From the NCBI GenBank assembly GCA_913030825.1, contig CAJWCU010000025.1:1-44042 (forward strand): a stretch of DNA of 44,042 nucleotides, read 5' to 3'. A program made the translations under genes and the position numbers. Each line of letters starts with the position of its first letter. Within the stretch, counting starts at the first letter, position 1. Positions 36,312-39,646 of the stretch are shown here, one piece after another. The DNA is from an uncultured Rhodospirillaceae bacterium (GTDB lineage Bacteria; Pseudomonadota; Alphaproteobacteria; Rhodospirillales; Casp-alpha2). The notes below the pieces were generated by a model. The model saw nothing but the letters and a program-made list of their open reading frames with translations. It was not told the origin of the DNA and did no database searches.

Positions 36312-36806
36312 ATGACTCGCACCTCCATCACACCTTCGGGCATCACACCGTCGGGCATCACACCGTCGGACGACGCGGCCCCGGCGGCCGAAGGCCGCCC
36401 GTTCAGCCAGATTCTCGACCGCCTGCGCGGCGCCGGCCTGCGCCCGACGCGCCAGCGCATGGCGCTCGCCAAGCTTCTGTTCGACGGTGGCGACCGCCAT
36501 CTGACGGCGGAAATGCTCCATGCCGATGCCCAGTCCGCCAACGTGCGGGTCTCGCTCGCCACGGTCTACAACACCCTGCATCAATTCCACCGCGCCGGTC
36601 TGCTGCGGGAAATCGTCGTCGATTCCCAGCGCACCTATTTCGATACCAACATGTCCGACCATCACCATTTCTATTTCGATGAAACGGGTGAGTTGTCGGA
36701 TATTCCGGGTGACCAGGTCGAAGTCGCCGCCCTGCCGCCGGTGCCCGACGGCATGGCCGTGTCGCGCGTCGACGTCGTCGTTCGCGTCCGTCCCGCCGAC
36801 GCCTGA
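36312..36806 (+). CDS. irr: Iron-responsive Fur-family regulator Irr
   Basis: A 164-residue Fur-family protein. The winged helix is LRPTRQRMALAKLLF and VSLATVYNTLHQFHRAGLL. The Irr hallmark is the histidine run SDHHHFYF (H117-H119), which binds haem or metal, and the absence of cysteines: no Cys-Pro haem motif and no zinc CxxC, as in rhizobial-type Irr. The N-terminus carries three tandem copies of a 15-base unit encoding ITPSG or ITPSD. The ATG at 36312 is used; the TTG at 36300 is less likely. In rhizobia irr also adjoins fabA-fabB-fabI. It precedes rubrerythrin, its probable target. Confidence 0.9.
   Translation: MTRTSITPSGITPSGITPSDDAAPAAEGRPFSQILDRLRGAGLRPTRQRMALAKLLFDGGDRHLTAEMLHADAQSANVRVSLATVYNTLHQFHRAGLLREIVVDSQRTYFDTNMSDHHHFYFDETGELSDIPGDQVEVAALPPVPDGMAVSRVDVVVRVRPADA
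36327..36371 (+). repeat. Three tandem 15-base units in the 5' coding part of irr
   Basis: Units at 36327-36341, 36342-36356 and 36357-36371 differ at one or two bases and encode ITPSG, ITPSG and ITPSD. They lie before the DNA-binding domain. In-frame copy-number change by slippage would alter only the tail length. Confidence 0.9.
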
Positions 36807-36893: not shown

Positions 36894-36940
36894 ATTAAAA
36901 TAATTCTAAACTTGACACCAATTGCCTGTCATAGCATAAC
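36894..36940 (+). promoter_or_regulatory. Rubrerythrin promoter preceded by an Irr-box-like site
   Basis: A perfect -35 TTGACA (36912-36917) and CATAAC (36935-36940) are 17 bases apart. Directly upstream is ATTAAAA-TAA-TTCTAAA (36894-36910), matching the recalled Irr box at 12 of 14 arm positions, with the right arm exact. Lying just upstream of the -35, it could serve activation or partial block by Irr. Predicted start near 36947, leader about 45 bases. Confidence 0.6.
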
Positions 36941-36991
36941 ATTTGCCTCCATAAATTAACTGTCCACCAGTCCACCTAAGGGAGTCAAACC

Positions 36992-37408
36992 ATGAGCCTT
37001 AAAGGCAGCCAGACCGAAGAAAACCTCAAAGCCGCGTTCGCCGGGGAATCCCAGGCCAACCGCCGCTATCTCTATTTCGCGCAGAAGGCCGACGTCGAAG
37101 GTTACAACGATGTCGCCGCCGTGTTCCGGTCCACCGCCGAAGGCGAAACCGGCCATGCCCACGGCCATCTGGAATTCCTGGAAGAAGTCGGCGACCCTGC
37201 CACGGGCGAGCCGATCGGCCCGACCGGCGACAACCTGAAGGCCGCGATCGCCGGTGAAACCCACGAATACACCGACATGTATCCCGGCATGGCCAAGACC
37301 GCCCGCGACGAAGGCTTCGATGAAATCGCGGATTGGTTCGAAACCCTGGCGAAGGCTGAAAAGTCCCATGCCGGTCGCTTCCAGAAAGCGTTCGACACCC
37401 TGGACTAA
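36992..37408 (+). CDS. Rubrerythrin-like diiron peroxidase without rubredoxin domain
   Basis: A 138-residue ferritin-like protein. The diiron ligands can be placed: E19 ([11 protein letters not shown]), E52 and H55 (EGETGH), E89 and E92 (AGETHEY), E123 and H126 (AEKSH). It therefore keeps the rubrerythrin-specific extra glutamate E92. There is no cysteine at all, so the C-terminal rubredoxin domain that normally feeds electrons is missing and an outside donor is needed. Rubrerythrins reduce hydrogen peroxide to water. AAGGGAG precedes the ATG. It is followed by the Fe-S CCG protein and DUF3501 genes on the same strand, with two hairpins in the 190-base gap. Confidence 0.92.
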
Positions 37409-37436
37409 CGCCGGGATTTGATCTCGGACCGGTTTC

Positions 37437-37505
37437 GGCGCGGGCGGTTTTCGCCCGCGCCGGCCGGTTTCCGATGTCGGCCGCCGCGCCCACTTCCGGC
37501 GCGGC
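37437..37505 (+). other. Two strong hairpins between rubrerythrin and the Fe-S protein gene
   Basis: A 10-base stem GGCGCGGGCG/CGCCCGCGCC (37437-37446 with 37452-37461) is followed by an 8-base stem GCCGCGCC/GGCGCGGC (37483-37490 with 37498-37505). Neither has a clean T run. They may reduce read-through or protect the rubrerythrin 3' end, giving more rubrerythrin than downstream protein. Confidence 0.5.
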
Positions 37506-37598
37506 CCCTTTCCGATATTCATGAGTTCCGGACGTTCTTCCGGGAAGACACGACCCGACGGGTCCGTCCGGCCCCCCAGCCCGTGAAGAGGACTTGTC

Positions 37599-38939
37599 AT
37601 GAGTGAAGGCAGCCTGGAAGCCCCGACCCGCCATCCCCTGCCCTGGCAGGACGCGGAATTCTACGACGAACAGAAACTCGACGAGGAACTGCGCCGTGTC
37701 TTCGACATCTGCCACGGCTGCCGTCGCTGCTTCAATCTCTGCGACAGCTTCCCGCGCCTGTTCGATCTGATCGACGAGTCCGAATCCGGAGAACTGGACA
37801 CGGTCGACAGTAAGGATTTCAAGCCGGTCATCGACGCCTGCACGCTTTGCGACATGTGCTTCCTGACCAAATGTCCCTACGTGCCGCCCCACGAATTCAA
37901 CCTGGATTTCCCGCATCTGATGCTGCGCGCCCGCGCCATCGACCAGAAGAAGGGCAAGGTTCCCTTCGCCGCCCGGGAAATGACCAAGACCGACCGCAAC
38001 GGCAAGTTGGCCTCGGCCATGCCGGGCGTCGTCAATTGGGCCTGCAACTGCGACAACAAGCTGACGCGCCCGATCATGGAATCCGTCGGCGATATCCACC
38101 GCGACGCCAAGTTGCCGGAGTTTCACGCCGACACGTTCATGGCGCGCGCAAAGACACCGCCCGCCGTGAACACGGAAGCCCCGGCCCATGGCCGCAAGGC
38201 GGTGTTGTATGCGACCTGTTTCGCCAACTACAACAACCCGAACATCGGCAGCGCCGCACAGGCCGTGCTGGCCAAGAACGGCGTCGAGACCACGGCCGTC
38301 TATCCGCGCTGCTGCGGCATGCCGCAGTTGGAACAGGGCGACATCGCCGCCGTCGCCGAAGCCGCCAAGGAAGTCGCCGACGAACTGTGTGAATGGATCG
38401 ACAAGGGGCACGAAATCATCGCCCTGGTGCCGTCCTGTGCGCTGATGATGAAGTTCGAATGGCCGCTAATCCTGCCGGACGACGAAAACGTCAAGAAGCT
38501 GGCGACCCATACGTCCGATATCACCGAATACATCGTTTCCATCGCCAAGAAGGAAGGCCTTGCCGACGGCATGTCACCGCTTTCCGGCGGCGTCACGGCG
38601 CATATCGCCTGCCACGCCCGGGCCCAGAACATGGGTCAGAAGGGCGCCGAAATGCTCAAGCTGGTGCCCGACACCGACGTCAAGGTGATCGAGCGATGCT
38701 CCGGCCACGGCGGCTCCTGGGGCGTGACCAAGGAATTCTTCGAGGTCGGTCTCAAGGTCGGCAAGCCGGTCGCCCGTCAGGCGGCCAAGAACGAAACGCC
38801 CTATATCGTTTCCGAATGTCCGCTCGCCCGTGACCATATCCTTCAGGGTATGGAGAAGCTGGATGCCGATACCTCCGGCGTCAAACAGGCACAGCACCCG
38901 ATTGAACTGATGGCCACCGCCTACGGCCTGGCCGACTGA
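37599..38939 (+). CDS. Double [4Fe-4S] protein with two CCG domains (HdrB/GlpC-like)
   Basis: A 446-residue Fe-S oxidoreductase-like protein. Two ferredoxin-type clusters are predicted: C38, C41, C44, C48 (CHGCRRCFNLC) and C81, C84, C87, C92 (CTLCDMCFLTKCP). Two CCG domains follow, as in HdrB, GlpC and GlcF: C207 with C238-C239 (RCCGMPQ), and C338 with C367, where the expected CCG reads CSG. No membrane segment or flavin motif is seen. The CCG layout suggests electron transfer, possibly with a noncubane cluster in the first CCG domain. GAGG lies upstream of the ATG. Between rubrerythrin and DUF3501, it is the likely electron partner of the former; this is inference. Confidence 0.88.
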   Translation: MSEGSLEAPTRHPLPWQDAEFYDEQKLDEELRRVFDICHGCRRCFNLCDSFPRLFDLIDESESGELDTVDSKDFKPVIDACTLCDMCFLTKCPYVPPHEFNLDFPHLMLRARAIDQKKGKVPFAAREMTKTDRNGKLASAMPGVVNWACNCDNKLTRPIMESVGDIHRDAKLPEFHADTFMARAKTPPAVNTEAPAHGRKAVLYATCFANYNNPNIGSAAQAVLAKNGVETTAVYPRCCGMPQLEQGDIAAVAEAAKEVADELCEWIDKGHEIIALVPSCALMMKFEWPLILPDDENVKKLATHTSDITEYIVSIAKKEGLADGMSPLSGGVTAHIACHARAQNMGQKGAEMLKLVPDTDVKVIERCSGHGGSWGVTKEFFEVGLKVGKPVARQAAKNETPYIVSECPLARDHILQGMEKLDADTSGVKQAQHPIELMATAYGLAD

Positions 38940-38974
38940 GAGTTTTAATGACCCCGACCATGCAAGAGGCCGCA

Positions 38975-39565
38975 ATGCCCAACAAGCACGAGATCGCCCC
39001 CGCCGATATCATGTCCATGGAGGACTATGGCCGTGAACGCTCGGAACGCCGCAAACGCGTGACCGAACTGAAACGCAACCGGCGCCTCGCCATCGGCCCG
39101 GACGCGACCTTCTATTTCGAAAGCTACGACACCATGTTCCATCAGGTGCATGAGATGCTGTTCATCGAAAAGGGCGGCGAGGATCAGATCGAAGACGAGC
39201 TGTCCGCCTATAACCCCCTGATCCCCAAGGGCCGGGAGCTGGTCGCGACCTTGATGTTCGAAATCGACGATCCGGTCCGCCGGGCGCGATTCCTGGCCGG
39301 CCTGGGCGGGGTCGAGGAAACCGTTTCCTTCGAATTCGCGGGCGAAACGGTCAAAGGCATTCCGGAAGACGACGTCGACCGCACCACGGCGGACGGCAAG
39401 GCATCGAGCATCCAGTTCCTGCATTTCCCCTTCACCGACGACCAGGTCGCCAAGTTCAAGGAGCCGGGCACCGAGGTGATGTTGAAGGTGGCGCATGAAA
39501 AATACGGCCACATCGCCATCCTGAGCGACGCCGTGAAGGAAGCCTTGGCGAGCGATTTCGACTGA
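38975..39565 (+). CDS. DUF3501 family protein
   Basis: A 196-residue cytoplasmic protein of a family of unknown function. Conserved stretches visible are DIMSMEDYGRERSERRKRV, GPDATFYFESYDTMFHQVHEML, the acidic EKGGEDQIEDELSAYNPLIP and TLMFEIDDPVRRARFL; a HEKYGHIA motif is near the C-terminus. There is no cysteine and no signal peptide. The ATG at 38975 has AGAGG at good distance; an upstream ATG at 38948 would add nine residues. From memory, DUF3501 genes commonly stand beside rubrerythrin and HdrB-like Fe-S genes, so a shared pathway is likely. Confidence 0.88.
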   Translation: MPNKHEIAPADIMSMEDYGRERSERRKRVTELKRNRRLAIGPDATFYFESYDTMFHQVHEMLFIEKGGEDQIEDELSAYNPLIPKGRELVATLMFEIDDPVRRARFLAGLGGVEETVSFEFAGETVKGIPEDDVDRTTADGKASSIQFLHFPFTDDQVAKFKEPGTEVMLKVAHEKYGHIAILSDAVKEALASDFD

Positions 39566-39592
39566 TCCGCCCAACGCCGGATCCAAACGACG

Positions 39593-39625
39593 ACGGCGCG
39601 GCCCGAAGCGGGACGCGCCGTTTTC
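39593..39625 (+). terminator. Terminator after the DUF3501 gene
   Basis: Stem ACGGCGCG/CGCGCCGT (39593-39600 with 39614-39621), 13-base loop with further pairing possible, followed by TTT. It marks the end of the rubrerythrin group, before the convergent SH3-domain gene. Confidence 0.65.
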
Positions 39626-39646
39626 ATATGCGGATGGGGGGCGTCG

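Follow-up and report, generated by a model that had tools for sequence, protein, structure and literature searches.

The window analysed here, 44,042 nucleotides (positions 1 to 44,042) of contig CAJWCU010000025.1 from an uncultured Rhodospirillaceae bacterium (assembly GCA_913030825.1), carries four consecutive genes on its plus strand: irr, encoding a Fur-family iron response regulator, rbr, encoding a rubrerythrin (RBR), rfo, encoding a soluble iron-sulfur (Fe-S) protein (RFO), and a gene for a DUF3501 protein (Table 1). The last three are read here, with a probability of about 0.6, as an Irr-controlled operon for an aerobic-type rubrerythrin, in which RBR would act as a peroxidase reduced by RFO, DUF3501 would contribute docking or assembly, and a hairpin would set RBR in excess. 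The diiron site of RBR would convert H2O2 to water with two electrons per turnover, and RFO, a soluble protein thought of here as passing electrons through two [4Fe-4S] clusters and one or more CCG-bound clusters, would re-reduce RBR because the latter lacks a rubredoxin. The operon itself would not supply the electrons for RFO; precedent in its family points to a flavoprotein or a quinol. DUF3501, which has no conserved Cys, probably docks RBR to RFO or aids the assembly of either. Transcription would start from a sigma-70-type promoter and, since the Irr box nearly touches the -35 element, would be gated by iron or haem status through Irr, and the hairpin after rbr would leave RBR more abundant than its reductase. 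Statements from the literature refer throughout to the portions of the cited papers that were covered.

The genome under study comprises 3.99 Mb in 68 contigs, and its closest named relatives, as judged by DUF3501, are alphaproteobacteria. A first-pass annotation made from the letters alone, spanning 36894 (the palindrome) to 39625 (the terminator), had placed three genes on one strand, closed by a terminator, and had set them behind irr with an Irr-box-like palindrome. This layout is borne out, as the open reading frames (ORFs) of rbr, rfo and DUF3501 are intact on the plus strand with a stem and T run 3' of them, and irr and the box lie upstream. Pfam matches were obtained for Rubrerythrin (1.1e-30), CCG (8.2e-11), DUF3501 (PF12007; 4.4e-57) and FUR (2.8e-20), and the irr product exceeds the IrrA cut-off of NF045678 (221.6 vs 150 bits).

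The trio of rbr, rfo and DUF3501 is a real conserved unit. The main survey covered an even sample of 190 genomes of the class; RBR was counted at an identity cut of our own setting (at least 64%, reached in 90 of the 107 genomes with any match at 1e-10), RFO at E <=1e-60 and irr at NF045678 E <=1e-20, and gene-absence counts include contig ends and fragments (e.g. G007, G127, G181, G027 and G125). DUF3501 was detected in 90 genomes, RFO in 86 and RBR in 90, with all three present in 84, none in 95, RBR without DUF3501 in 5 and DUF3501 without RBR in 5. RFO never occurred without DUF3501 (0/86), 84 of the 86 RFO-bearing genomes also hold an aerobic RBR, and each pairwise co-occurrence across the 190 genomes reached a Fisher p <1e-40 with kinship ignored. 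The order irr-rbr-rfo-DUF3501 on one strand was found at 72 of 90 DUF3501 loci (89 fetched plus the window), the others being rbr-rfo-DUF3501 (5), rfo-DUF3501 (5), rbr-DUF3501 (1) and DUF3501 alone (7). Some incomplete loci lie at contig ends and others are genuine splits; in four genomes (G065, G185, G141 and G152), DUF3501 is retained elsewhere, away from rbr. The best 80 of 581 confirmed relatives, a set of named loci that overlaps with the first sample (L155 appears to be the G064 contig, as length and match place agree), comprised 64 loci in four-gene order, 12 with three genes, 3 with rfo-DUF3501 and 1 with DUF3501 only, and included SAR11, SAR116, Kiloniellaceae, Magnetovibrio and also Methylocystis, where irr is not adjacent. 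A wider draw of 249 genomes from the phylum contained DUF3501 in 13, 5 of them outside the class. A conserved rather than random neighbourhood had been named beforehand as a check on the joint role of these genes, and the counts agree with it. Mere synteny was rejected as an explanation, given that fabA, fabB, fabI, SH3 and gyaR were present at 27-42 of the 76 loci with all three genes, pabB/pabC at none (0/76) and irr at 71/76. Three records are noted separately: a Candidatus Marinimicrobia record (L223) has an irr-rbr-rfo-DUF3501 locus resembling the alphaproteobacterial ones, perhaps through a binning error; DUF3501 is split over two frames in a decaying or misassembled copy (G125:C16:37526-38091); and DUF3501 is fragmented and RFO partial in another decaying or misassembled locus (G027:C1:96036-97555).

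A link to Irr is also seen at the promoter of rbr. The 200 bp upstream of rbr were scanned in 78 loci including the window, the 8 loci of the phylum draw being left out, for TTTAGAANNNTTCTAAA, which we take to be the ICE/Irr box motif (it is not printed in the main text of the Irr papers searched), with up to 3 mismatches and against shuffles. An Irr-box-like palindrome was present at 60/78 loci, with about 1.5 expected. Bias from the preset motif was set aside, as a motif-free expectation-maximisation search recovered TTAGAAtnaTTCTAAAc with an occupancy of 0.92. A TTGACA-like hexamer (<=1 mismatch) follows the box by 1-6 nt in 53 of the 60 (2.7 expected), the distance being exactly 3 nt in 37 of these 53. 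Such boxes are concentrated near rbr, with 1/79 before rfo (0.8 expected), 0/71 before DUF3501 and a weak signal before irr (14/67; 0.8 expected). They also track irr itself: in the best 80 of 581 loci, a box was found at 54/64 with irr adjacent and at 3/12 without, those three being Methylocystaceae, and SAR11 loci share the box-promoter layout of the window. In the main survey, irr was present in 115/190 genomes (98 above the curated cut-off), comprising 83/90 genomes with aerobic RBR vs 32/100 others, and the box occurred in 64/83 genomes with both irr and aerobic RBR and in 0/7 lacking irr (p 8.8e-5, kinship ignored). Eight lower-identity control rubrerythrins had no box, but irr was found in only one of those 8 genomes. 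These patterns suggest, on sequence grounds, that the operon belongs to the Irr regulon, its ICE-like promoter box following genomic irr. Of the earlier reading as an iron-regulated peroxide-reducing chain, the conserved gene set and the iron link are thus supported, the latter being stronger than the sequence of one genome showed, and the electron transfer, the peroxidase activity and the part of DUF3501 stay proposals.

Within its own genome (4 Mb), the box motif with <=2 mismatches has 3 sites vs 8 for a reversed control pattern, so that the box is not rare there and, judged from this genome alone, may be due to chance; the weight of the box comes from its position and its conservation in relatives. 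Further Irr targets proposed there (L122 and L123) were rejected as no better than chance, L123 having no clear gene. The top own-genome match (L122:1501-1517, 1 mismatch) lies about 80 bp before an ORF that resembles, by eye, a cyclopropane-fatty-acid synthase. At another locus (L115), a second Irr-box-like palindrome upstream of rbr has its start 32 nt downstream of that of the first. A stricter consensus promoter scan, which demands T at the last -10 position, omits the window promoter.

RBR contains no Cys, and alignment to sulerythrin locates all seven diiron ligands at E19, E52, H55, E89, E92, E123 and H126, as the first-pass annotation had described; the sulerythrin ligands are E20, E53, H56, E92, E95, E126 and H129 (PMC12851003). 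The seven ligands are kept in 84/84 RBRs of other DUF3501-bearing genomes, and 83/84 are Cys-free. The closest solved structures are those of the Burkholderia pseudomallei rubrerythrin (9onm, 3.5e-72; 4di0, 3.8e-72), followed by sulerythrin (1j30, 2.8e-52), and the classical rubrerythrin of D. vulgaris is more distant (1.6e-28). RBR also falls below the classical rubrerythrin model NF045767 (139.5 vs 200 bits) and has no rubredoxin domain. Its sequence therefore appears to place it in the aerobic-type lineage (group 4 of Cardenas 2016), which combines the absence of rubredoxin and Cys with 4DI0/1J30 as nearest structures by E-value and co-localised DUF3501 and RFO. It is conceivable that RBR is instead an iron-handling ferroxidase and that these genes work in storing or releasing iron instead of removing peroxide, an idea in keeping with the Irr/ICE-type iron control and with the annotation of the Pelagibacter rbr as a putative ferroxidase (PMC2864753). 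This is distinctly unlikely, however, in view of the complete rubrerythrin ligand set, the description of sulerythrin as likely detoxifying via peroxide reduction (PMC12851003), and the consideration that Fe(II) oxidation needs no Fe-S reductase partner.

For RFO, the two [4Fe-4S] motifs previously annotated are present as N-terminal four-Cys motifs (C38/41/44/48 and C81/84/87/92), followed by one CCG half with four Cys (C207, C238, C239 and C280) and another with three (C338, C367 and C407). These 15 Cys are invariant in 91/91 relatives, including non-alphaproteobacterial ones, in a count from which a single RFO of only 267 aa was dropped. The CC pair is retained in the first CCG half (C238, C239); in the second half, Ser takes the place of its second Cys. 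The RFO model (pLDDT 93.1) matches the folds of LutA (integrative model 9a6l), EtfD (9ojn) and HdrB (8rwn, 7bkb and 5odc), EtfD aligning over 409 columns with a TM score of 0.51 by query length, and HdrB was also found by an RFO profile search (2.3e-4). HdrB, which we take to contain two CCG motifs of five Cys each, exceeds the four and three of RFO by this count. The earlier label "HdrB-like" accordingly holds for the fold and fails for the full Cys set, and a full HdrB-type site in RFO is not supported. RFO lies under both GlpC cut-offs (TIGR03379, 115.6 vs 279.9; NF008369, 188.7 vs 278 bits) and has no obvious membrane segment (best 19-residue hydropathy 1.55). EtfD combines a membrane haem b domain with two [4Fe-4S] clusters and two CCG domains (PMC13083937); RFO, at 446 aa and with no clear membrane segment, is not a full EtfD, and it is the soluble part of EtfD that matches.

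Since RFO has fewer CCG Cys than HdrB, it is more likely an electron relay than a disulfide reductase, and because the CC pair is kept, the first CCG half may hold a reactive cluster. That pair and the relationship to HdrB would also suit a scheme in which RFO and DUF3501 make up a reductase of their own, for disulfides or persulfides, and merely share the rbr promoter. Such a scheme is very unlikely: it conflicts with the reduced Cys complement of the CCG halves and with the co-occurrence of RFO and aerobic RBR in nearly all RFO-bearing genomes, and in Hdr the clusters have a bridging Cys displaced by substrate, whereas those of EtfD need no such Cys for full coordination (PMC13083937).

DUF3501 is, by its predicted model (pLDDT 92.6), an orphan fold. 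Below 0.001, this model matches both chains of 3fjv and nothing else, 3fjv being the solved structure of a DUF3501-type B. pseudomallei protein of unknown function, and the next structural match is 4eae (0.011, TM 0.28). The previous description of DUF3501 is corrected in that a solved structure exists. No Cys is conserved among the relatives, 51/93 of which are entirely Cys-free, and six charged residues (R45, E58, E69, E74, E84 and R112) are invariant in 92/92.

The layout of the predicted transcript may point to unequal expression of these genes. The gap between rbr and rfo is 190 nt in the window (median 107), with a fold z of -3.1, and z <=-2 was obtained for 53/72 such gaps; gaps outside 40-300 nt were dropped, and stems were counted on the first 150 nt against plain letter shuffles. 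Stems of >=8 bp occur in 62/73 rbr-rfo gaps (27.8 expected) and T-rich tails in 30/73 (1.7 expected), compared with 39/89 (30.0 expected) and 8/89 (2.6) after DUF3501, and 35/68 (14.3 expected) and 5/68 (2.1) in the irr-rbr gap. The stem excess is thus partly general, and it is the T-rich tails that distinguish the region after rbr. The tail of the window hairpin is short, with T at only 3 of the 8 positions that follow the stem. Partial termination or stabilisation may consequently raise rbr mRNA above rfo-DUF3501 mRNA. At the end of the operon, the terminator stem (39593-39621) is followed by T, and the fold of 39585-39632 reaches -25.9 kcal/mol (z -3.7); a simple terminator scan (stem >=5, loop 3-8) misses this terminator, as neither its 4-bp inner stem nor its outer stem fits the rule. 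If RFO is scarcer than RBR, as the terminator-like hairpins would allow, RFO and DUF3501 might not form an electron chain at all but help to assemble or repair RBR, by loading its diiron site or by re-reducing that site once it has been inactivated. The orphan fold of DUF3501, with no conserved Cys, and the only partly filled metal sites in B. pseudomallei RBR crystals (PMC12585693) fit this idea. It is nevertheless unlikely, as B. pseudomallei RBR stably binds Mn, Co and Fe (PMC12585693), on the assumption that it was made without the partners, and as the architecture of RFO is that of the electron relays EtfD and GlpC.

Several observations weigh against an Irr-controlled, RFO-reduced RBR operon. 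Mirror-tree analysis gave no special RBR-RFO-DUF3501 coupling (RFO-DUF3501 given IRR 0.33, RFO-IRR given DUF3501 0.43), and co-evolution was dropped as proof of the Fe-S donor. All 8 loci newly obtained from the phylum draw (5 outside and 3 inside the class) have the order rbr-rfo-DUF3501 with no irr match, and the irr link is thus not universal even in the class, because three of these loci belong to it. A clear box is lacking in 19 of the 83 irr-bearing genomes with aerobic RBR, and the excess of stems extends to the irr-rbr gap. Thermoproteales have RBR-DUF3501 without RFO (PMC5114695). Five genomes of the main survey (G016, G033, G162, G164 and G169) hold irr and aerobic RBR with no DUF3501 match and no RFO match at 1e-60, indicating that RBR can exist without RFO as donor. 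In four of these five, rbr directly follows irr and there is no box. In G016 (L132:5188-7387), a peroxiredoxin-like ORF, identified by eye, lies between irr and rbr, and an Irr box is present. The ligand E92 is replaced by D in three of the five partnerless RBRs (L134, L135 and L136), two of which (L135 and L136, from G033 and G162) belong to one genus; tblastn clipped RBR in L135 and L136, and the C-terminal ligands were read from ORFs, shown for L135 only. It seems from these sequences that the irr-rbr pair can outlast the trio and that RBR persists without RFO, perhaps in altered form. A wider and rather doubtful extension would regard irr, the -35-locked box and RBR as an ancient alphaproteobacterial unit of iron-gated peroxide defence, older and more stable than RFO-DUF3501, with RFO turning RBR into a flavoprotein- or quinol-driven peroxidase by way of CCG clusters poorer in Cys than those of HdrB, DUF3501 providing docking and the leaky terminator supplying many RBR per RFO.

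The direction of regulation is finely balanced. The transcript of an rbr in Candidatus Pelagibacter ubique rose 1.57-fold under iron limitation (PMC2864753), which counts against simple repression if that rbr is the operon gene, and the rigid box-promoter spacing fits activation as well. Irr might then bind the box upstream of -35 at low iron and recruit RNA polymerase, so that the peroxidase would be produced at times when catalase and other haem enzymes fail. The centre of the box near -48 from the predicted start, outside the core promoter, would suit this, as would the prevalent 3-nt distance to TTGACA, a rigidity that we take as activator-typical, and the Pelagibacter result, given that SAR11 loci have the same box-promoter layout. 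On the other hand, Irr reportedly acts as a repressor when iron is depleted, in those species that have been examined (PMC3413700), ccpA of R. sphaeroides, with an Irr-box about 40 nt before its start, is slightly higher in a low-iron irr mutant (PMC3413700), and RBR and RFO cost iron. Activation by Irr is therefore a real possibility, held at somewhat below even, and repression at low iron, as an iron-sparing measure, is considered a little likelier than activation.

Table 1. Features of the irr-rbr-rfo-DUF3501 locus, in window coordinates.
Feature	Position	Strand	Basis or remark
irr, Fur-family iron response regulator (IrrA)	36312..36806	+	ORF, NF045678; alternative start 36300 TTG
Irr-box/ICE-like palindrome ATTAAAATAATTCTAAA	36894..36910	.	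2 mismatches to TTTAGAANNNTTCTAAA; predicted
Predicted promoter	36912..36940	+	-35 TTGACA 36912-36917, 17-bp spacer, -10-like CATAAC 36935-36940
rbr, aerobic-type rubrerythrin, 138 aa, without rubredoxin domain	36992..37408	+	Pfam, ligand mapping
11-bp G+C-rich hairpin in the rbr-rfo gap, candidate leaky terminator or mRNA stabiliser	37436..37462	+	Fold z
rfo, soluble Fe-S protein, GlpC/EtfD/HdrB-like, 446 aa	37599..38939	+	Two [4Fe-4S] motifs and CCG region
DUF3501 gene, 205 aa	38948..39565	+	PF12007; 196 aa if ATG 38975, which has an AGAGG leader
Intrinsic terminator	39593..39624	+	8-bp outer stem, one mismatch, inner CCCG-AAG-CGGG, then T run

Among the remaining features of the window, the irr translation contains no Cys, and the 5' end of irr (36326-36369) includes a near-perfect 15-bp tandem repeat of 2.9 copies that codes for PSGITPSGITPS. 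A scan of the window for RNA families yielded none reaching the gathering threshold, and a tRNA scan of the window found none.

Many aerobes and some mitochondria possess an aerobic-type rubrerythrin system, in which the donor role of RFO is a proposal. The conserved Irr-box promoter offers a handle on the purpose and timing of such a system, also in SAR11, a group that ranks with the most abundant bacteria of the sea, and the surveys favour RFO as a relay over a disulfide reductase and tie the orphan-fold DUF3501 to RFO. The gene trio itself is already known. The first-pass annotation had presented the joint function as not established; the association and the donor hypothesis were in fact published in 2016, when RBR-RFO-DUF3501 was described as the "aerobic-type rubrerythrin system" of Cardenas 2016, with all three in 185 genomes and RFO proposed to stand in for rubredoxin as electron donor (PMC5114695). 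As far as the literature searched extends, this analysis adds the Cys count of RFO, the hairpins that follow rbr and the conserved promoter with its Irr box. The word "Irr" is absent from the main text of PMC5114695, and in the covered text of PMC5114695 and PMC7050145 there is no report of irr as a fourth neighbour, of a fixed distance from box to -35 or of a hairpin after rbr. The literature covered on rubrerythrin and Irr likewise does not describe the operon as an Irr target, an earlier site prediction being possible.

Compared with known systems, the operon has the same three clustered genes and rubredoxin-less RBR as the system of Cardenas 2016 and that of Andalucia, where the trio has predicted mitochondrial targeting and is shared with other eukaryotes (PMC7050145). 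Sulerythrin (1j30) and the B. pseudomallei rubrerythrin (4di0, 9onm) share with RBR the diiron ligands and the absence of a rubredoxin domain, and their natural electron donor is unnamed in the covered text of PMC12851003 and PMC12585693. The CCG Fe-S relays EtfD, GlpC, LutA and HdrB share the fold or architecture of RFO, from which they are set apart in that RFO has no membrane haem domain, no adjoining flavoprotein gene in the window and fewer CCG Cys than HdrB. On the regulatory side, the Irr/ICE-controlled peroxide and iron genes mbfA, bfr, ccpA and blr7895 (PMC3413700) provide the closest parallel: mbfA and blr7895 differ from rbr in encoding members of the membrane MbfA family (iron exporter), whereas all four resemble the operon in having an ICE near the promoter and iron-containing products, some of which act in peroxide defence.

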